From Polyangiaceae bacterium (GTDB taxonomy: Bacteria > Myxococcota_A > Polyangia > Polyangiales > Polyangiaceae), in assembly GCA_025937835.1 (NCBI GenBank), contig JAICQO010000011.1, forward strand, positions 1 to 64,000: 64,000 nucleotides of DNA. The letters are read 5' to 3'. A program made the translations under genes and the position numbers. Positions 12,633 to 37,815 of the stretch are shown one piece after another. The notes under the pieces are model-generated. The model saw nothing but the letters and a program-made list of their open reading frames with translations, was not told the origin of the DNA and did not search any database. Numbering within the stretch: position 1 is the first letter of the stretch; the number at the start of each line of letters is the position of its first letter.

Positions 12633-13094
12633 ATGAAGCTGTCGAACAAGGGGCGCTACGCCGTCCGAGCCCTGTTCGATATCGCCTTTTTCAACGACGG
12701 GCGTCCGACTCAAGTCAAGGACATCGCCGAGCGGCAGAGCATCCCGCCCCGCTTTCTCGAGCAGATCTTCCAGGACCTGAAGCGCGCCGGGATCGTTGGC
12801 TCGAAGCGCGGGCCACAGGGCGGCTACAGCCTCACGCGGCGCTCGGTCGAGATCCGACTCGGGGACGTGATCCGGGCGCTCGAAGGCCCGATCGTGCTCG
12901 GGGATCGGGACGGCAGCGCGCGCCGCACCGGGCCCGCCAATGACACACGGCGCGTCGCCGAATCCGTGTTCCGCGAGCTGTCCGCTCGCGTGGAAGCCTG
13001 TTTCGACGGCATGACGATCGCAGATATGTGTACGCGTGCCGAAGAGATCGGCCTCCGGCGTCCAGGAACCCAACGCAATGTCTACGTCATCTGA
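12633..13094 (+). CDS. Rrf2-family transcriptional regulator (CymR/IscR-like)
   Basis: 153 residues. The start MKLSNKGRYAVRALFDIA and the recognition region KDIAERQSIPPRFLEQIFQDLKRAG with the wing GPQGGYSL define the Rrf2 winged-helix family. IscR-type members hold an Fe-S cluster with three clustered cysteines; here that segment (about 90-110) has none. Only Cys123 and Cys133 remain, so Fe-S binding is doubtful. CymR, which controls cysteine metabolism with cysteine synthase as its partner, is a closer model. That fits the next gene, a cysteine synthase whose start overlaps this ORF by 17 nt. It probably autoregulates the operon (inference). Confidence 0.88.
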   Translation: MKLSNKGRYAVRALFDIAFFNDGRPTQVKDIAERQSIPPRFLEQIFQDLKRAGIVGSKRGPQGGYSLTRRSVEIRLGDVIRALEGPIVLGDRDGSARRTGPANDTRRVAESVFRELSARVEACFDGMTIADMCTRAEEIGLRRPGTQRNVYVI

Positions 13095-14052
13095 GCAGGC
13101 TCTGCCTCCACTGCCGTCACACCCGCTGGTCTTCAGCCGGGCGCTGGATCTGATCAGCGACACGCCGCTCGTCGAGATCCGGAGGCTCGGTCGCGATGCG
13201 CCTCGCGCGCGGATCTACGGCAAGCTCGAGTCGCTGAACCCCGGCGGCTCGGTCAAGGATCGGATTTGTCTGGCGATGATCGAGCGCGCCGAGCGCGAGG
13301 GCAAGCTCGCCCCGGGTGGCGTCGTGATCGAGCCGACCAGCGGCAACACCGGCATCGGACTCGCGCTCGTGTGTGCGAGCCGCGGCTACCGCTGTATCCT
13401 GACCATGCCCGAGAGCATGAGCCTCGAGCGACGGCAGCTGTTGCAGTCGTTCGGCGCCGAGCTGGTGCTCACGCCGGAAGCCGAGCAGATGGACGGCGCG
13501 ATCAACCGTGCCCGCGAGCTCGTCGCGTCGACGCCCGGCGCGTTCATGCCGCAGCAGTTCGAGAACCCCGCGAACCCGGAAGTACACGCGGCGCGCACGG
13601 TTCAGGAAATCCTCCACGCCATGGGCTCGGACCCCGTGGACGCCTTCGTCTCCGCGGTGGGCACGGGCGGCACGGTCAGCGGCGTGGGCCGAGTGCTGCG
13701 CGATCGCTACCCCTCCTGCCGCGTGATCGCGGTCGAGCCCGAGTCGTGCGCGACGATCTCGCGCGGCGAGCGCGGTCCGACCAAGATCCAGGGCATCGCC
13801 GCCGGCTTCGTGCCGAAGAACTTCGACGCGCGCGTCCCCACCGAGGTGCGCACCGTCACCGACGAGCGAGCCTACCAGGTGAAGCGCGAGCTCGCCCGCA
13901 TGGAAGGGCTGCTCGTCGGCATTAGCTCGGGCGCAAACCTGGCGATGGCGCTCGACGTCGCGCGCGAGCTCGGCGAGGGCAAGAACGTCGTGACGTTCCT
14001 GTGCGACACCGGCGAGCGCTACTTCAGCCTCGACGAGTACTTCGCGAAGTGA
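13078..14052 (+). CDS. cysK: Cysteine synthase (O-acetylserine sulfhydrylase)
   Basis: 324 residues. This PLP enzyme of fold type II makes cysteine from O-acetylserine and sulfide. The PLP lysine is Lys60 in LNPGGSVKDR; the phosphate and substrate loops EPTSGNTGIG and GTGGTVSGVG and the C-terminal ISSGANLAMAL are all present. The ATG at 13078 overlaps the regulator gene by 17 nt and the next gene starts with GTGA over its stop, so translation is coupled on both sides. A second PLP paralogue lies later in the operon; this copy looks more like the classical sulfide-using CysK, but use of a protein thiocarboxylate cannot be excluded. Confidence 0.9.
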   Translation: MSTSSEQALPPLPSHPLVFSRALDLISDTPLVEIRRLGRDAPRARIYGKLESLNPGGSVKDRICLAMIERAEREGKLAPGGVVIEPTSGNTGIGLALVCASRGYRCILTMPESMSLERRQLLQSFGAELVLTPEAEQMDGAINRARELVASTPGAFMPQQFENPANPEVHAARTVQEILHAMGSDPVDAFVSAVGTGGTVSGVGRVLRDRYPSCRVIAVEPESCATISRGERGPTKIQGIAAGFVPKNFDARVPTEVRTVTDERAYQVKRELARMEGLLVGISSGANLAMALDVARELGEGKNVVTFLCDTGERYFSLDEYFAK

Positions 14053-14810
14053 ACCACACACAGCTCCCCCTGCGTTCGAGCCGGAACACGCTCGAAGGTC
14101 GCCGGCTCCTCGTAATTGGAGCGGGCGGGCTCGGGTGTGCGGTTTTGGCGGCTCTGGCCGACAGCGGAGCCGTGCTCGTGCTCGCGGACGACGACCGCGT
14201 GGACCTCTCGAACCTGCACCGCCAGATTCTGTACCGGCAGGACTCGGTGGGCCGAGACAAGCTCGACGAAGCGAAGCGCGCGCTCGTGTCGCTCGGCGTG
14301 GAGGAGCAGCGCATCGAGCTCGTGCGGTCGCGTTTTCTGCCGGACAACGCGCGCTCGCTCGCCGCGTCGGTGGACCTGGTGCTGGAAGGCGCCGACAACT
14401 ACGCGACCAAATTCCTGACGGCCGACGCGTGCTACCTGGAGCGCCGGCCCGTCGTGCACGGCGCGGCCGTTCGCTTCGTGTCCACGGTGCTGTTCAGCGC
14501 GCCCGGTGCCCGCCCCTGCTACCGCTGCCTGTTCGAAGACGTGCCGCCCGGCGCCCAGCAGAACTGCGCCGAGGCCGGCGTGCTCGGGCCGCTGGTCGGG
14601 TTCGCCGGCGCGCTGATGGCCGACTTCGCGCTGCGCGCGCTCGCCTCGGACGAGCCGCTCGCCGGCAAGCTCGTGAGCTACTCGGCCCTCGAGGACGAGC
14701 TCCGCGAGATCACCGTTTCCGAGAACCCCGCTTGCCCGTTGTGCGGGAAAAACCCGCAGATTTCCCGCATCGAAGAGACGCGCTACACGGCCCCGAGCTG
14801 TGCAGCCTGA
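14049..14810 (+). CDS. ThiF/MoeB-family E1-like adenylyltransferase
   Basis: 253 residues from GTG 14049. E1-like enzymes adenylate the C-terminal glycine of a ubiquitin-fold carrier. Seen here are the nucleotide loop LLVIGAGGLGC (20-30), the acceptor region DDDRVDLSNLHRQILY (48-62), the ATP-contact EGADNYATK, and four zinc cysteines, Cys157/Cys160 (CYRC) and Cys229/Cys232 (CPLC). Cys173 in NCAEAGVLGP sits at the thioester or persulfide position of ThiF. It lacks the usual N-terminal arm of about 25 residues (RYSRQ...), which instead appears in the 95-residue ORF two genes later. There is no C-terminal rhodanese domain as in MoeZ. Likely partner: the CysO-like protein encoded 19 nt downstream. 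Confidence 0.9.
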   Translation: MNHTQLPLRSSRNTLEGRRLLVIGAGGLGCAVLAALADSGAVLVLADDDRVDLSNLHRQILYRQDSVGRDKLDEAKRALVSLGVEEQRIELVRSRFLPDNARSLAASVDLVLEGADNYATKFLTADACYLERRPVVHGAAVRFVSTVLFSAPGARPCYRCLFEDVPPGAQQNCAEAGVLGPLVGFAGALMADFALRALASDEPLAGKLVSYSALEDELREITVSENPACPLCGKNPQISRIEETRYTAPSCAA

Positions 14811-14829
14811 GAGCACCCAAGGAGAAACC

Positions 14830-15102
14830 ATGGTCACGATCCGCATCCCCACCCCGCTCCGCACCCTGACTGGCGGCGAAGAACAAGTGAAGGCCCCCGG
14901 TGAAACCGTGCGCGCGGTGATCGACGCGCTCGAGAAGAATCACCCCGGCATCAAAGATCGCCTGCTCGACGAAAAAGGCGTGCGCCGCTTCGTCAACCTC
15001 TACCTCGGCGACGAGGACATTCGCTTCCTCGACGGCCTCGACACCAAAGTGAAGAGCGGCGACGAGATCAGCATCGTGCCCGCCATCGCCGGCGGCGCAT
15101 GA
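14830..15102 (+). CDS. CysO/MoaD-like sulfur carrier protein
   Basis: 90 residues behind an AAGGAG ribosome-binding site. It is a beta-grasp carrier of the MoaD/ThiS superfamily, close in pattern to mycobacterial CysO: IPTPLRTLTGG, VIDALEKNHPGIKDRL, RRFVNLYLGDEDIRFLDGL and the ending SIVPAIAGGA. In CysO the terminal Gly-Gly becomes a thiocarboxylate that donates sulfur to cysteine. Here one extra Ala follows the Gly-Gly, so the carrier would need trimming before adenylation; the JAMM protease in the operon is the natural candidate (inference). Its stop overlaps the next start (ATGA). Confidence 0.88.
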   Translation: MVTIRIPTPLRTLTGGEEQVKAPGETVRAVIDALEKNHPGIKDRLLDEKGVRRFVNLYLGDEDIRFLDGLDTKVKSGDEISIVPAIAGGA

Positions 15103-15386
15103 GCGACGGCGACCCGTACGATCGCCAGCGGCGCTTGTCCGAAATCGGCAGCGTCGGGCAGAGCAAGATCGAGCGCTCGGAGGCCCGCCTGTGCGCGGGG
15201 CCCGGCGCCGCGGTCGCGGTCGCCTTCCTGGTGCGTGCGGGCGTCGAACGCGGCTCGATCACGCGCGCTGCCAGGCCGCCCAGCTTTCCGCACGCACGGA
15301 GCTTCCGCTTCAGCGGGCCGTTCGCCGTGGCGCGCGGCGCGCACCAGGCCCTGTCCCACTTGCTTTCTGTCGTGAGAACCCAATGA
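15099..15386 (+). CDS. 95-residue truncated E1-like protein
   Basis: The ATG overlaps the carrier stop (ATGA), and the end overlaps the next gene in the same way, so it is embedded in the operon and very likely translated. Residues 7-30 (YDRQRRLSEIGSVGQSKIER) match the N-terminal arm of MoeB/ThiF enzymes, and CAGPGAAVAVAFLVRAGVE matches the first nucleotide-binding strand-loop-helix, though the GxGxxG loop is degenerate (GPGAAV). The C-terminal AVARGAHQALSHLLSV resembles the last E1 helix; the catalytic middle is missing. It may be an adaptor that completes the arm-less E1 upstream, or a decaying duplicate. Coupling on both sides argues for function. Confidence 0.7.
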   Translation: MSDGDPYDRQRRLSEIGSVGQSKIERSEARLCAGPGAAVAVAFLVRAGVERGSITRAARPPSFPHARSFRFSGPFAVARGAHQALSHLLSVVRTQ

Positions 15387-16333
15387 ATCGGAACCTGTTC
15401 CGCTCCCGGCGGCTCAGCTCGATCCTGGACGCGGTCGGCAACACGCCGCTCGTGCGGCTCGAGCGTGTCGCGCGCTCCGCCCCGGGGGTCGAAGTCTACG
15501 TCAAGCTCGAGTTCTGCAACCCCGGCGGCTCGGTCAAGGATCGGCCTGCCAAGCGCATGATGCTCGACGCGATCGAGGACGGCCGCCTGACGAAGGACAA
15601 GATCCTGATCGACTCGACCAGCGGCAACACCGGCGTTGCCTATTCACTGGTCGGCGCGGCGCTCGGCTACCGCGTGGCGCTGGTGATGCCGAAGAACGTG
15701 ACCAAAGCTCGCAAGGACATCACCCAGGCCTTCGGCACCGAGCTCATCTTCAGCGATCCGATGGAAGGGTCGGACGGCGCGATCCGCCTCGTGCGCAAGA
15801 TCGTAGACGAGAACCCGGACAAGTACTTTTACCCGGACCAGTACTCGAACCCGTCGAACCCCGCGGCGCACTACCACGGCACGGGACAGGAGATCCTCGA
15901 CGCGCTGGGCGACCGGATCACGCATTTCGTGACCGGCCTCGGCACGAGCGGCACGGCCATGGGCACCACGCGGCGGCTGCACGAGCACTCGCGCAAGATC
16001 TACTGCGTGGCGGCCGAACCGCTCGAAGCCCTGCACGGGCTCGAGGGGTTGAAGCACATGCCGAGCTCGATCGTTCCGCCCATCTACGACAAGGATCTCC
16101 CCGACGAGATCCTGAGCGTCCCCACCGAAGCCGGCTGGGACATGTCCGATCGCCTCGCCGCCGAGGAGGGCCTCCACGTCGGCCACTCGACGGGCGCCAA
16201 CGTGTGGGCGGCCGTGAAGCTCGCCGAGCGCGCGCAGAAGGAGCAAGGCGGCGGCTGCGTCGTCACCATCGCCTGCGACCGCGGGGATCGCTACTTCGCG
16301 CCGATGAAGTGGGAAAAGCGCTATACGTGGTGA
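15383..16333 (+). CDS. CysM-like PLP-dependent cysteine synthase
   Basis: 316 residues, from an ATG overlapping the previous stop. Fold-type II PLP enzyme with Lys52 in CNPGGSVKDRPAKRM, DSTSGNTGVAYSL, the substrate loop GLGTSGTAMGTTRRL and HSTGANVWAAV. The SVKDRPA variant and the FVTGLGTSGTAMG loop resemble mycobacterial CysM, which uses O-phosphoserine and the CysO thiocarboxylate rather than sulfide, and the gene sits directly with the carrier and the JAMM protease. The C-terminal end (MKWEKRYTW) is not that of CysK. Whether it uses phosphoserine or acetylserine cannot be decided by eye; a cystathionine beta-synthase-like activity is the main alternative. Confidence 0.82.
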   Translation: MNRNLFRSRRLSSILDAVGNTPLVRLERVARSAPGVEVYVKLEFCNPGGSVKDRPAKRMMLDAIEDGRLTKDKILIDSTSGNTGVAYSLVGAALGYRVALVMPKNVTKARKDITQAFGTELIFSDPMEGSDGAIRLVRKIVDENPDKYFYPDQYSNPSNPAAHYHGTGQEILDALGDRITHFVTGLGTSGTAMGTTRRLHEHSRKIYCVAAEPLEALHGLEGLKHMPSSIVPPIYDKDLPDEILSVPTEAGWDMSDRLAAEEGLHVGHSTGANVWAAVKLAERAQKEQGGGCVVTIACDRGDRYFAPMKWEKRYTW

Positions 16334-16362: not shown

Positions 16363-16875
16363 ATGAGCAAAGCTTGGATACAGGGCAACCTGGTGATTTC
16401 GGCCTCGGCGCTGCGCGCCGTCGAGCAAGCCGCGCGCGAGGCCTACACGCGCGACGAAGAAGCGTGCGGCTACCTCTCGGGTCCCGCAGCCGAACCGCTC
16501 TATGCCGATCGGGCGATCGAGCTCGAGAACCTGGCCAACAAGTACCACGAGGTCGATCCCGAAGGGCATCCGCGCACGGGCCGCGAGTACTTCAAGATCA
16601 ACAGCCGCAAGTTCGAGCGCGCGCTTTCGGAGGGCGACGCCGCAGGCAAGCCGGTGAAGGTGTTCTTCCACTCACACCTCGACTGCGGTTCGTACTTCAG
16701 CGCCGAGGACGCCGCGAGCATGACGCTCGGTGGAACGGGCGGGCCGACCTACGAGCTTTCGTACCTCGTCACCGCCGTGGACAAGGGCGAAGTCACCAAG
16801 CACCGGCTGTTCGTCTGGAGCGACGAGAGCAAGAGCTTCGTCGAGTCGCCGTTCACGGAGCGCGCTGATCCGTGA
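16363..16875 (+). CDS. Mec/QbsD-like JAMM-domain metalloprotease
   Basis: 170 residues. The MPN+/JAMM zinc site is complete: Glu33 in DEEACGYL, and His103, His105, Ser113 and Asp116 in HSHLDCGSYFSAED. In actinobacteria the related protein Mec (with CysM and CysO) cleaves the new cysteine from the end of CysO; QbsD-type relatives trim extra residues after the carrier Gly-Gly. Both jobs are plausible here because the carrier ends GGA. The ATG lies 29 nt after cysM, and the stop overlaps the next gene by GTGA. The call is strong from motif plus context. Confidence 0.9.
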   Translation: MSKAWIQGNLVISASALRAVEQAAREAYTRDEEACGYLSGPAAEPLYADRAIELENLANKYHEVDPEGHPRTGREYFKINSRKFERALSEGDAAGKPVKVFFHSHLDCGSYFSAEDAASMTLGGTGGPTYELSYLVTAVDKGEVTKHRLFVWSDESKSFVESPFTERADP

Positions 16876-18158
16876 AGCCGTCGCGCGCAGCCGGTCTGTG
16901 CGCGATCCTCGGTGCGACGACGGCGGCGGCTCCCAGCCGCGCCGACCTCGCGGAGGACGCGAGCAGACTGGCCAGCGCGTGGCAGCGCTCCGGTAAAGTC
17001 ACACGCCAGAAGGTGCGCTTCGTCGAGCGCGGCGATCCGGCGCTGATCTTCTCGACGCTCGACGCGCCTGCGGCCAAGCGCGCGCCGTGCGTCACGGTCG
17101 CGCTCATCGGCCCGAACAGCACGCATTTCGTGGTGCGGGCGCTCGGGATGACGCCGCTCGGGACCCCGGGAGACAGCTCGTTCGCGAGCCTCGCGGGCCT
17201 CGTGCAGATCACGCGCTGCGGCCGGCTGCGCTCGAGTGTTTCGGCGCTGCTCGTCGAGATGCGTTCGCCGCGCGCCGTGGTCGAGACGCTGGTGGTCGAG
17301 TCCGACGAACCGCCGCCCGAGGCCGTGGCCATCCTGCCGCAGCGCGATCCGGGACCGGTCGAGCCGTTTACGGCGCTCGAGATCCGGGCCGAGCCGGCGC
17401 CGCTCGCAGAGCGCGTCGAGCTCGCGCTCCAGCGCTTGCGACGCGACGGAGGCCTGGACGTGACGAGCGAAGACCTCGCGGCGCGGCCCGACGGCGCGAG
17501 CCGCATCGCGCGCACGCTCGGCCCGGGTTGCCATCGCTTCGAGCTCCTGACCGAGCCCTCTTCCAGCGCGGGCGCTCGCACCGAGCTCGCCATGCAGCCG
17601 CAGCTCGAGCCGGCGGCGCGCCTCGTCTCGGTGGAACAGGGCGACGGCTTGCAAGCGGCGCTGACGGTGTGCGCTGCCGCCGAGTCGCAGCTCGGCTTGT
17701 CGTACCGCGGGGCTCCGGCGTCGCCGCTGCGCCTGCTCAGGGCGCGTTTTCCCCTGCCGAACGGTCTACCGGAGGCCTGGGGCAGCGCTTCGCGCGCGCA
17801 GGTAGCGGCGATCCTGTTCCGGCATCGCGCCAAGGTCAGCGGCTTTCCGGTCGATCAAGGCCTCGGCATCCAGGGCCCGACCTTGCTGCCGCTGCGCGTC
17901 GAGCCCGGCGCGTGTTACGTCGCCGTCGTGGCAGGCATCGCGGGGCGCTCCGCCGGATTCTCGCTGGCCGCTTCGGCGCCGGGCGTCTCGGCGCAGAACC
18001 GCTCGGGCGAAGACAACGACGGCACGCTGGTCTCGTTCTGCGTGCGCTCGGGCACCGAGGCGCTGCTCGAGGCCGACTCGCGCGGCTACGGCGTGGCCTG
18101 GATCTACGCGCTATTTCAGACCGGCAAGCTCGCCGTAGGCGCGGAGCTTCCGCGATGA
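16872..18158 (+). CDS. Secreted protein with three two-cysteine repeat modules
   Basis: 428 residues from GTG 16872, overlapping the protease stop by 4 nt. A signal peptide (GLCAILGATTAAAPSRA) is followed by three segments, each opening with a cysteine in a hydrophobic strand and closing with a second cysteine 42-47 residues later: Cys73-Cys116 (PCVTVALIGP...ITRC), Cys220-Cys267 (GCHRFELLTE...LTVC), Cys348-Cys390 (ACYVAVVAGI...VSFC). The pattern suggests beta-sandwich domains each closed by one disulfide, like PPC-type domains. No enzyme motif is visible. The downstream gene overlaps by 4 nt and carries four more copies, so the two form a pair. Link to cysteine metabolism is by position only. 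Confidence 0.72.
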   Translation: MKPSRAAGLCAILGATTAAAPSRADLAEDASRLASAWQRSGKVTRQKVRFVERGDPALIFSTLDAPAAKRAPCVTVALIGPNSTHFVVRALGMTPLGTPGDSSFASLAGLVQITRCGRLRSSVSALLVEMRSPRAVVETLVVESDEPPPEAVAILPQRDPGPVEPFTALEIRAEPAPLAERVELALQRLRRDGGLDVTSEDLAARPDGASRIARTLGPGCHRFELLTEPSSSAGARTELAMQPQLEPAARLVSVEQGDGLQAALTVCAAAESQLGLSYRGAPASPLRLLRARFPLPNGLPEAWGSASRAQVAAILFRHRAKVSGFPVDQGLGIQGPTLLPLRVEPGACYVAVVAGIAGRSAGFSLAASAPGVSAQNRSGEDNDGTLVSFCVRSGTEALLEADSRGYGVAWIYALFQTGKLAVGAELPR

Positions 18159-19828
18159 TCGGGCGTATTGCCGTCGCCGTCGCGGCGCTGCTCCTGCCGT
18201 CGCTCTCTTGCACGCCGAAGTCGCAGCCAGCGGAGGACGCTCGCGGGCGCGCCGGAAACCGCTTCGGCCCGGTTCCGCTGCCCAGCTCCACGCCCTTGTT
18301 CGGCGCCGACGAGTCCGGAACCAGCGTGCTGGCCGTCGAGGCAGGCACGACGGGCGATCGCGTCGAGTCGCTGCTCGAGGTGCCGGACGATCACTGCGCG
18401 CTCGTGATCGCGCGCGGCAGCGCGACCATCGACGACGTCGACCTGATGGCGTTCGCCGAAGACGGCACCTCGCTCGGCGTGGACGAGAGCCCGGACAAGA
18501 CGCCGGCGCTGCTGCTGTGTCCGCCGCACCCGCGGCGGATTTGGCTGTCGGCGCGGATCGCTTCGGGGCACGGCCTGCTCGCGCTCGGCGCCGGTCGTAT
18601 CAGCCCCAAAGACGCCGAGCGCGCCCGCGCCGCGTACCGCATCAAGGCCGGCCCCGACGCCCTCGGCGCTCCAGGCGGCGCTTTCCCGGAGCTCGAAGAG
18701 AAGCTCGCTGGCCACCGCCGCGAAATCGGCGGCACGTGGCAAGACGTGCGCCGCACGCCGGTTCCGCTCGAGTCGCGCTTGCCGACGCGGATCTCGGCGG
18801 CGGTCGAGGCGGGCCGCTGCCTGGACGTGCTGGTGGTACCGGGCAACGACGTCGGACACCTCGAGCTCGTCGCCACCGACTCGAGCGGCGCGATTTTGGG
18901 CCGTAGCCAGAGCTCCGGCCGCGACCGTTACCTCGTGGTGTGCGCGCCCGGCGAGACCACGATCGCGCTCGAGATCCGGCCGCATTCGGGGCGCGGCGCC
19001 GGCCTGCTCTTGCTGTCGAAGACGCGCGACGGCAGCGAGCCGGACCTCGTCGATCCGATCCGGCTCGACGCGTTCCCCGCCGATGAGCTCGAAAAGGCGC
19101 TGCGCTCGGCGAACGAGCGCCTGGAAAAGAGCGGCTATCGCGCAGGCCGCACGGCGCTCAAGGGGGCGCTCGAGGTCGGCCGCCGCACGAGCTTCGAGCT
19201 CACGCTGCCCGCCGGCTGCTCCCGGCTCGATTTCGTGGGCGGCGCACCGTTGCGCGGCGTCGCTTCCTGGGTGTTCGACGCGCAGGATCGACTCGTGGCG
19301 TCGCTCGCCTCGAGCGGGCGCGGAGCGCTGTTCGTTTGCGGCCCAGCCGGGCCGAGACGCTTCGACGCCGAAGCCACGCTCCGCCCCGGCCCGTTCGCGC
19401 TCGTGGTGCGGCCCGAGCCCGGCACCTCCGCCGAGCTCGTGAAGGCGCCGCTCGCCGCGGGGCGATTGCTCGCGCAGAGCATCGAGCGCGGAGCCCTCGA
19501 GCGCGCGAGCGAGATCGGCCTGGTCCGTCGCTTCGAGCTCTCGGAGGCGGCGATCGAAGCGTTCGAGCTGACGGTACCGTTCGGGCGCTGCATCGACGTC
19601 GCGCTCGGCCTCGATCCGGGCGCGGTCGGCGCCGAGATCCGCCTGGTGTCGGCCGCGAGCGGCAAGGAGATCGCCCTCGGCCGCGGACCGCACGCCACGA
19701 GCACGCGCGTTTGCGCGCTCGACGCCGAGAGCGTCAAAGAGAACTTGAAAACCCGGGTCGAGCTGCGGGTCGCGTCGGGAGCAGGGGTCGGCCTGGTCGC
19801 CACCCGCATGTCGAGCCCCAGCCGCTGA
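18155..19828 (+). CDS. Lipoprotein with four C-x40-C repeat modules
   Basis: 557 residues. A lipoprotein signal (MIGRIAVAVAALLLPSLSC) precedes four modules whose cysteine pairs are almost identically spaced: Cys81-122, Cys222-263, Cys355-395 and Cys479-520. Each opens with a strand such as DHCALVIA, GRCLDVLVV, GCSRLDFVG or GRCIDVALG and continues with a G/D-rich turn and an LLLC/YLVVC/LFVC/TRVC strand. They are best read as disulfide-closed beta-sandwiches in the periplasm or on the cell surface. A helical, charged insert lies between modules 2 and 3 (DELEKALRSANERLEKSG). The start overlaps the previous stop (ATGA). It is the last gene of the plus-strand series that begins at 12633. Not assignable to a family by eye. 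Confidence 0.75.
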   Translation: MIGRIAVAVAALLLPSLSCTPKSQPAEDARGRAGNRFGPVPLPSSTPLFGADESGTSVLAVEAGTTGDRVESLLEVPDDHCALVIARGSATIDDVDLMAFAEDGTSLGVDESPDKTPALLLCPPHPRRIWLSARIASGHGLLALGAGRISPKDAERARAAYRIKAGPDALGAPGGAFPELEEKLAGHRREIGGTWQDVRRTPVPLESRLPTRISAAVEAGRCLDVLVVPGNDVGHLELVATDSSGAILGRSQSSGRDRYLVVCAPGETTIALEIRPHSGRGAGLLLLSKTRDGSEPDLVDPIRLDAFPADELEKALRSANERLEKSGYRAGRTALKGALEVGRRTSFELTLPAGCSRLDFVGGAPLRGVASWVFDAQDRLVASLASSGRGALFVCGPAGPRRFDAEATLRPGPFALVVRPEPGTSAELVKAPLAAGRLLAQSIERGALERASEIGLVRRFELSEAAIEAFELTVPFGRCIDVALGLDPGAVGAEIRLVSAASGKEIALGRGPHATSTRVCALDAESVKENLKTRVELRVASGAGVGLVATRMSSPSR

Positions 19829-36051: not shown

Positions 36052-37815
36052 TCATCCCGCGCTCGCGCGCAGCCCGTCGAGCAGATCCCAATCCGGGAGC
36101 GGCACGCGCACCTGGCGGCCCTGGACCGCGACGCCGTACTCTTCGCACAGCTTCGACAGCCCGATCCCGTCGATCACCGAAATCGGGGTCGCGCCGGCCG
36201 CCGCCGCTTCTTCACGCGCGCCGGACAGGACCTGGCCGGTGGTGATGATGAGACCCGCGGAGGCCGAGCCGTAGTGGTGCAAGGCGCCACGCAGCTCGGT
36301 CACGCGCTCGCGGCCGATTTCGCGGCCGTCGCGCCGCACCACGACGGCGGTGCGCAGATCGCCGGCGGCGCTCTTGGCGCGGCCGCTCAAGTGCACCTCA
36401 GCGCCGTGCGAGCCGGGGCGGCGCACCGGCGCGAGCTCGACGTAGCCCATCTGCTCGAGCAAGAGGACGACGGTCTCGCCGATCGCGCGCTGCGGCAGCT
36501 CTTGCAGCGTGCGCAGCAAGCTGCGGCGCGACGCCTCGCGCAGGCGATCGAGGGCCGTGTAAAAGTCGCGCTCGGCACGGCCGAGATCCGGATCCACGAG
36601 CCAGTCGCTGAGAGCCAGCTTGTTGCCCAGCAGCCGGAAGCGAGGCCTTCGGCCTTCGTTGGCGCGGCGTGCATTGTCGGCGCGCACCGCCGACAGGACG
36701 ATCTGCTGCGAGGCAGCGAGCTCCCCGCCGAGCCGGCCACGGCGATCGGCCGAGTCCAGCAGGGTTTGCATCGAGACCGGGCCACGGCCGCGGTCGAAGC
36801 CGGACAGCAGCGACTCGACAGCGTCTGCCAAGGGCTTTCCGGAGAGCTCGTCGAGCGGCGTGCGATCGCGCTCGCCGCGGTCACCGCGTTCGCGTTCGCC
36901 GCGGTCGCCGCGTTCGCCGCGGTCGCGATCACGGCGGTCACGCTCGCCGCGGTCGCGTACATCGAAGCCGCGGGCCTCGCCGTTGCGCTCGCGGGCCTCG
37001 CCGTTGCGCTCGCGGGCCTCGCCGCCCTCGCGCGCTTCCGCGCGCGGCTCGCGGCTCTCGCGCGCCTCGCGCGGTTCTCGGGGCTCCCGCGGTTCTCTGG
37101 GCTCTCGCGGCTCTCGCGCTTCGCGGGGCTCGCGCGCCTCACGGCTCTCGCGCGCCTCGCGGGCCAGGCGCTCGACCTCTTCCGGATCGAGCGCTGCGTC
37201 GGTCACGGTGTACGAGGGCAAATCGTCGCCACCGCTGCGTTCCTCCGTCCGGCCGCCGCGGCCGCGTCCACGACGCCGACGGCGCCGGCGCCCGTTCTCT
37301 TGCCGATCGCCGTCGGCCGCGTCGGCCGAAGCCTCGGCAGCGGGTTCGGCCCCGAAAATCGGGCGATCGTCGTCTTCTTCCGTCTCGAAAAGCTCGGTCG
37401 CGTGGGCTGCGAGCTCGGCGCGCTCGCGCTCTTCGGCGTTCGGTTGTACCGGCGCGCCTTCCTCCGCGAAAGCGTCGAGGCTCACGTGCGCGGCGCCCGC
37501 GTCCGACTCACCCTCGATATCGAGCTCCTGACCCGAGAGTCGCTCGAGCGCGGGAGTGCGATCCTTCAAGCCCTTCTCGATCGTCGCGTCGTCCCACTCG
37601 CGGAGCGCGAACACCCCGGGTTTCACGCGCACCAGCGGATTTTCCTTGTCGCCCTTCTTCACGAGGGCCGCGAGGCGCGCCCCCATGGTCACCTCCGGGC
37701 TCTTGCCCACGTGGCTCAGCAGATTCTTCTCGATCGCGACGTCTGTGATTTCTTTGTAATGTAAAGGCTTACCCACCAGGCGCAGAACCTGCGCCGCCGC
37801 TTCCGTGAACGTCAT
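36052..37815 (-). CDS. HARE-HTH protein with Arg/Glu-rich linker and Mrr-like nuclease domain
   Basis: 587 residues. The first 75 (MTFTEAAAQVLRLVGKPLHY, KPGVFALREWD) form a HARE-HTH winged helix, as in the RNA polymerase delta subunit and proteins thought to read DNA modifications. Residues about 160-335 are a charged low-complexity linker made of REPREP-, RERNGEA- and RGERDR-type repeats plus an Arg-rich patch (RRRRRRRGRGRGGR). A second helical segment follows, then a C-terminal domain (about 465-570) with VTELRGALHHYGSASAGLIITTG and SVIDGIGLSKLCEEYGV, the pattern of Mrr/type IV restriction endonucleases. The core where Mrr has D...E-x-K reads AVVVRRDG, so the catalytic lysine seems replaced by Arg. 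It may bind modified DNA or RNA rather than cut. Confidence 0.75.
   Translation of the reverse strand: MTFTEAAAQVLRLVGKPLHYKEITDVAIEKNLLSHVGKSPEVTMGARLAALVKKGDKENPLVRVKPGVFALREWDDATIEKGLKDRTPALERLSGQELDIEGESDAGAAHVSLDAFAEEGAPVQPNAEERERAELAAHATELFETEEDDDRPIFGAEPAAEASADAADGDRQENGRRRRRRRGRGRGGRTEERSGGDDLPSYTVTDAALDPEEVERLAREARESREAREPREAREPREPREPREPREPREARESREPRAEAREGGEARERNGEARERNGEARGFDVRDRGERDRRDRDRGERGDRGERERGDRGERDRTPLDELSGKPLADAVESLLSGFDRGRGPVSMQTLLDSADRRGRLGGELAASQQIVLSAVRADNARRANEGRRPRFRLLGNKLALSDWLVDPDLGRAERDFYTALDRLREASRRSLLRTLQELPQRAIGETVVLLLEQMGYVELAPVRRPGSHGAEVHLSGRAKSAAGDLRTAVVVRRDGREIGRERVTELRGALHHYGSASAGLIITTGQVLSGAREEAAAAGATPISVIDGIGLSKLCEEYGVAVQGRQVRVPLPDWDLLDGLRASAG
36870..37165. 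repeat. Degenerate short repeats encoding the Arg/Glu linker
   Basis: Imperfect tandem units such as CGCGGTCGC and CGCGGCTCT repeat through this stretch and encode REA/REP and RGERD peptides. They could change length by slippage or recombination. Confidence 0.7.

Follow-up and report, generated by a model that had tools for sequence, protein, structure and literature searches.

PPC domains occur in exported proteins, most often on the C-terminal side of a peptidase, and we know of no catalytic activity for them. The collagen-binding representatives from ColG and ColH are secreted domains with a jelly-roll fold that occur in tandem. Two jelly-roll lobes also make up the N-terminal domains of the bacterial channel DeCLIC, a membrane protein with Ca2+ sites whose sheets pair strands A-H-C-F and B-G-D-E (PMC12664993), and a sandwich of the same type, in which a disulfide is conserved (C49-C121 in TMED9; PMC11414720), is present in the GOLD domains of the eukaryotic p24/TMED cargo receptors. 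In cysteine metabolism, the CysO/CysM/Mec(+) pathway of Mycobacterium combines a sulfur carrier, a CysM-like synthase, an E1 enzyme and a JAMM peptidase (PMC3227635), and in Mycobacterium tuberculosis this pathway is induced by oxidative stress (PMC11361707, PMC3227635). The present analysis concerns two adjacent genes, P1 and P2, located at the end of an operon of this type in a stretch of 64,000 nucleotides from a Polyangiaceae bacterium (assembly GCA_025937835.1, contig JAICQO010000011.1, positions 1 to 64,000 of the forward strand; hereafter the window). Their products consist of seven modules, each with a conserved cysteine pair, which are best called divergent relatives of the PPC domain. 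A literature search found nothing on the P1/P2 pair, and nothing relevant on CysO with myxobacteria or on Sorangium lipoproteins.

Modules and cysteine pairs of P1 and P2

The P1 gene overlaps the preceding JAMM peptidase gene by 4 nucleotides (16872-16875) and is itself overlapped by P2 to the same extent (18155-18158). The features of the pair are as follows.

16872-18158, + strand: P1, 428 residues, GTG start, Sec-type signal peptide without lipobox, three helix plus PPC-like modules
16992-17306, + strand: P1 module a (residues 41-145), Cys73/Cys116; from AlphaFold2 strands and whole-protein profile alignment with P2 module b
17403-17753, + strand: P1 module b (residues 178-294), Cys220/Cys267; from module profiles, AlphaFold2 and whole-protein profile alignment
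17772-18128, + strand: P1 module c (residues 301-419), Cys348/Cys390; from module profiles, AlphaFold2, structure search and whole-protein alignment
18155-19828, + strand: P2, 557 residues, ATG start, lipobox LPSLSC, proline-rich linker, four helix plus PPC-like modules
18209-18211, + strand: codon of the P2 lipobox cysteine, Cys19
18290-18601, + strand: P2 module a (residues 46-149), Cys81/Cys122; from module profiles and AlphaFold2
18692-19030, + strand: P2 module b (residues 180-292), Cys222/Cys263; from module profiles, AlphaFold2 and structure search
19088-19420, + strand: P2 module c (residues 312-422), Cys355/Cys395; from module profiles, AlphaFold2 and structure search
19448-19813, + strand: P2 module d (residues 432-553), Cys479/Cys520; from module profiles, AlphaFold2 and structure search

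Comparison of module profiles with each other linked six of the seven modules, with about 97% for P2a-P2b, P2b-P2d and P2c-P1b and 90% for P2d-P1c; P1a was the weak one and stood apart when compared alone. In a profile comparison of the whole proteins, P1 and modules b, c and d of P2 aligned in 327 columns (97.6%, E 4e-12), with each of the six P1 module cysteines opposite a P2 cysteine. By these alignments all seven modules are homologous, P1a being included through the whole-protein alignment, and P1 and P2 are tandem paralogues. Since P1 aligns as a whole to P2 modules b-c-d with the cysteines in register, the pair arose by a tandem duplication, P2 having one extra module. Neither the P2 profile nor Pfam PPC found further paralogues in the rest of the genome, though distant copies could have escaped these searches, the P2 profile having missed P1 too.

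The cysteines of P1 are residues 10, 73/116, 220/267 and 348/390, with pair spacings of 43, 47 and 42 residues, and those of P2 are residues 19, 81/122, 222/263, 355/395 and 479/520, with spacings of 41, 41, 40 and 41. When eight cysteines are placed in P2 at random, the chance that the four pair spacings differ by no more than one residue is about 5 per million. Since Cys10 of P1 lies inside the signal peptide and Cys19 of P2 is the lipobox cysteine, the mature parts hold only the paired cysteines and the lipidated one. The module cysteines are a conserved system: among 54 P1 and 54 P2 orthologues from Polyangiaceae (Sorangium, Polyangium, Minicystis), both were kept in 372 of 374 module copies (about 99%), and no further cysteine was present in the mature part of 53 of the 54 P1 and 49 of the 54 P2 sequences.

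The P1 signal peptide ends ARA/DL in most orthologues. In P2 the lipobox cysteine was invariant in an alignment of 28 sequences, and on the strength of this motif P2 is a bacterial lipoprotein with predicted lipidation. A preliminary description of the window, made by reading the letters, had given coordinates, reading frames, cysteine positions and 4-nucleotide overlaps that were all exact on re-reading, and its proposal of one module repeated seven times is borne out by the profile links and by the whole P1/P2 alignment. It had also called both proteins secreted; export by a signal holds for the two of them (a signal peptide in P1), and for P2 the term has to be corrected to lipoprotein, which goes beyond mere secretion.

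Predicted fold and family assignment

AlphaFold2 models, obtained with alignments of the orthologue loci as input, had a mean predicted local distance difference test score of 87.4 for P1 and 83.9 for P2. In these models each of the seven modules is a jelly-roll sandwich of about eight strands (G and H merge in some modules), and most modules are preceded by a helix. In all seven, the first cysteine lies where the third strand (C) begins, and the second lies where the sixth (F) ends or immediately behind it. Since DeCLIC has strands C and F side by side in its A-H-C-F sheet, a bond joining these two positions would be geometrically natural, and a cross-strand C-F disulfide is predicted in each module.

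The closest structure to the P2 modules was that of the DeCLIC N-terminal lobes (VIA Z 10.6, 2.4 Å over 96 residues, 17% identity), and the ColH collagen-binding domain (3jqw) matched the P2 model with VIA Z 10.5 (2.3 Å over 95 residues). Further matches were the Tk-SP C-terminal domain (VIA Z 10.0 with P2 and 9.5 with P1 module c), ColG s3 (5iku; VIA Z 9.8 with the P2 model) and the p24 GOLD domains (VIA Z 9.7 with P2 module c). Unlike DeCLIC, P1 and P2 have no channel domain; the GOLD domains differ from the modules in their cysteine spacing, and the likeness to them was seen in structure comparison. With respect to the PPC collagen-binding domains, P1 and P2 are distinguished by lying below Pfam detection, by the conserved C-F cysteine pair, by the leading helix and by the lack of an attached peptidase; in a Pfam search neither of these window proteins showed a peptidase domain or any other domain. 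Cry and Vip proteins and neuropilin, which occupied the top rows of the Foldseek search, are chains of beta-sandwich domains whose template modelling scores lay at 0.1-0.2, and we do not count them as relatives.

No PPC (PF04151) match was obtained for the window proteins and 53 further orthologues at E up to 1, Pfam as a whole gave nothing meaningful for the P1 and P2 orthologues, there was no meaningful match of the window proteins to NCBIfam or PHROGs or of the P2 orthologues to NCBIfam, and a PDB sequence search with the P1 and P2 profiles gave nothing. The assignment came from more distant four-module proteins. That of locus L071, from the same order, is found by the P2 profile with E 1.6e-31 and matches PPC with 37.6 bits over residues 277-340, inside its module at 272-350; that of locus L075, from another family of the class, is found with E 6e-39 and matches PPC with 35.0 bits over the same stretch as a module. 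Since both exceed the Pfam cut-off for PPC (25.9 bits) within their modules, the window modules are best called divergent PPC relatives, as judged from sequence and models, and not Pfam-recognised members. The family that the preliminary description could not name is in this way given one, that of a divergent relative of the PPC/collagen-binding domain, for a pair which Pfam, NCBIfam, PHROGs and PDB sequence search do not recognise. Its placement of a disulfide in every module is in agreement with the conservation and strand positions of the cysteines in the predicted structures, and a PPC-like beta-sandwich, one of the folds that it had proposed for comparison, is supported by the models.

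The cysteine operon and its association with the pair

Upstream of P1 the window contains the following genes.

12633-13094, + strand: Rrf2-family regulator, first gene of the operon; PF02082 E 3e-35, NCBIfam rrf2_super
13078-14052, + strand: CysK, cysteine synthase A; TIGR01139 over cut-off
14049-14810, + strand: ThiF/MoeB-type E1 without the usual N-terminal helix; PF00899 match from model position 15-16
14800-15102, + strand: ThiS/CysO-like sulfur carrier, ending ...AIAGGA; PF02597 E 4e-17
15099-15386, + strand: small protein of 95 residues with MoeB N-terminal motif; from the motif and a family profile against the genome's other MoeB-type protein
15383-16333, + strand: CysM-like cysteine synthase; NCBIfam cysM best with 324.6 bits (cut-off 394.2), cysKM 320.2 (cut-off 344.2)
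16363-16875, + strand: JAMM peptidase (Prok-JAB, Mec-like), motif HSHLDCGSYFSAED = HxHx7Sx2D; PF14464 39.3 bits, cut-off 25

Sulfur carrier, E1, CysM-like synthase and Mec-like JAMM peptidase are thus encoded together, as in a CysO-type operon, with CysM below its NCBIfam cut-off. In comparison with the Mycobacterium pathway, an Rrf2 regulator and CysK lead the operon, P1 and P2 follow it, the carrier ends in GGA instead of GG, and the E1 is without the rhodanese part and appears to be split. Since the gaps from Rrf2 to P2 are at most about 30 nucleotides, one transcript is likely; a promoter scan found no sigma-70-type site, and such a scan is not informative in this group.

In Polyangiaceae the pair usually ends an Rrf2-CysK-ThiF-ThiS-CysM-JAMM operon. 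P1 and P2 were adjacent and co-directional in 75 of the 85 family genomes having both (the window being counted by its 4-nucleotide overlap), and the overlap was exactly 4 nucleotides in 28 of 43 pairs checked. Of 89 family genomes, 63 have a JAMM gene no more than 10 kb upstream in the same orientation, and in 47 the distance is within 1 kb; split contigs depress these adjacency and distance counts. In Sorangium and relatives (L112, L117, L136, L138, L140) P1 and P2 are about 5 kb apart and face each other, with a kinase between them in L112, and are thus uncoupled yet close.

Outside the family the pair of three plus four modules recurs in other families of the order (L062, L064, L067, L069, L070, L073, L077), with cysteine spacings of 35-43, mostly 40-42, and four such module frames in a row are present in L061, L065 and L066; these modules were counted in stop-to-stop frames, the upstream parts of which are not protein. 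Of the 16 loci from the order, 11 have divergently transcribed cysteine genes in the same 10-16 kb stretch, a fraction that is not unbiased since the loci are the best-scoring matches. The recurrence of such gene pairs beside the same operon in other Polyangia, which the preliminary description had suggested looking for, is accordingly found both in Polyangiaceae and in these 11 loci. Across an order of myxobacteria, a pair with the 3 + 4 plan and paired cysteines has thus stayed next to a single metabolic operon.

Proposed role of the pair and its possible link to the operon

With moderate confidence we favour a structural account in which the pair acts as an envelope scaffold tied to the operon. 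Module homology, cysteine conservation, predicted fold, export signals, gene coupling and the persistent operon neighbourhood carry its structural part. The seven disulfides would form either at the cell surface or in the oxidising periplasm, P2 would be lipid-anchored in the envelope, and P1 would be exported without an anchor and be soluble. Through translational coupling the two proteins would be made in step and then associate in one envelope assembly, a rigid scaffold stabilised by the intramodule disulfides. As no catalytic activity is known for PPC domains, the role of this scaffold would be binding, possibly of a polymer or a protein, as in the collagen-binding PPC domains. Since an Rrf2-led operon of CysO type ends with P1 and P2, the amount of both may follow the sulfur or redox state of the cell, and the neighbourhood retained across most of the order hints at a link to cysteine synthesis. 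A functional link would join cysteine synthesis in the cytoplasm to a structure of the envelope. The widest form of this proposal is an order-wide envelope system in which the disulfide-locked 3 + 4 pair would be the extracytoplasmic arm of a CysO-type, Rrf2-controlled sulfur/redox regulon, switched on by cysteine shortage or by oxidants; we regard it as rather unlikely. The oxidative induction makes shared regulation plausible, but it was observed in M. tuberculosis and says nothing direct about the window operon.

Several observations weigh against the favoured account. The window proteins have no direct Pfam match, and the predicted template modelling scores of the models are just 0.62 (P1) and 0.61 (P2), the relative arrangement of the modules being uncertain. 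Seven family genomes have JAMM without the pair and 18 have the pair without a clear JAMM gene (Fisher p 0.018), the two being apart in 25 of 108 family genomes (about a quarter), and two complete operons (L154, L156) end at JAMM with no pair behind it. Since pair and JAMM are each found alone, any functional connection with cysteine synthesis can only be a loose one; the pair is not needed for cysteine synthesis and can live without it. The same data are what would be expected if the structural reading were right and the operon link were an inherited neighbourhood with no shared function, the operon simply ending at JAMM where the pair has been lost. This explanation, which is possible although we doubt it, would also account for the divergent orientation outside the family, where a Ser/Thr kinase and a D-Ala-D-Ala ligase often accompany the pair instead, and for two f14 loci (L074, L075) which hold the pair with no operon near. 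It is less easily reconciled with the fact that other neighbours on either flank (UvrD, a hydrolase and a Tudor-like gene) are common to near relatives only, whereas the block from Rrf2 to P2 is still intact where protein identity is down to 30-40%, or with a nearness that persists through the rearrangement from divergent to co-directional.

The position of the pair behind an Rrf2 regulator and cysteine genes, together with the oxidative-stress induction already cited for the M. tuberculosis CysO pathway, would also suit reversible disulfides, the pair being a thiol/redox sensor or a periplasmic cystine-handling system that reports the sulfur state. This is very improbable, since cysteines fixed at strand ends in all seven modules and so highly conserved are as expected of structural disulfides, and neither a CxxC motif nor a signalling domain is present in P1 or P2. 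The preliminary description had offered a further idea, for which gene order is the only argument: the operon would supply the cysteine for surface proteins rich in this residue. The cysteine contents of the pair, 1.5% and 1.7%, are inside the interquartile range of the window genes (0.65-1.75%, median 1.1%), and the pair is kept in the 18 genomes without a clear JAMM gene, so that this idea is contradicted and almost certainly wrong. The ordinary cysteine content and the separate occurrence of pair and JAMM remove supply as an explanation and leave shared regulation or plain neighbourhood.

E1 enzyme, carrier end and neighbouring genes

The 95-residue product of the small gene between ThiS and CysM (+ strand) contains the motif YDRQRRLSEIGSVGQSKI, of the form RQxxLxEvGxxGQxxL found at the N-terminus of MoeB/ThiF proteins, and the gene is conserved, 29 of 42 loci having the motif in this position. 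The genome has a second MoeB-type protein, of full length, which matches the Pfam model from position 1, while the operon ThiF starts at position 15-16; the family of the small protein aligned to the N-terminus of this second protein (97%, E 1e-10). In MoeB, an arginine on the N-terminal helix extends to the ATP site of the other subunit. Since the small gene bears the MoeB N-terminal part and the operon ThiF is without it, a split E1 enzyme is a reasonable guess from sequence. Several loci with a near-zero gap between ThiS and CysM are also without a ThiF match.

The carrier ends GGA in the window (GGR in L064) and not GG, and would need trimming before activation; the operon JAMM peptidase is a candidate for this step.

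In some genera an adenosine 5′-phosphosulfate kinase/CysC-like gene, recognised by eye from the start MSGFVVWFTGLSGxGKSTLA, is present between JAMM and P1 (L112:14700-16445, L113:998-3016, L097:2342-3970) and would add sulfate assimilation to the operon. Outside the family the genes between the pair and the cysteine genes are often a Ser/Thr kinase, or DUF368 together with a glycosidase-like gene, names given by sequence reading and not by Pfam. The Ser/Thr kinase located between the PPC cluster and the cysteine operon in L061, L064, L065, L070, L073 and L076 has a cysteine-rich stretch at its N-terminus, and on the far side of the PPC cluster a D-Ala-D-Ala ligase gene, also named by sequence reading, is found in L061, L065, L067, L076 and L078. 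In the window itself, the gene at 36052-37815 (− strand), with the start MTFTEAAAQVLRLVGKPLHYKEIT, resembles the gene beside the D-Ala-D-Ala ligase at the PPC cluster of two of these loci (L067:10382-12427, L076:226-2232).

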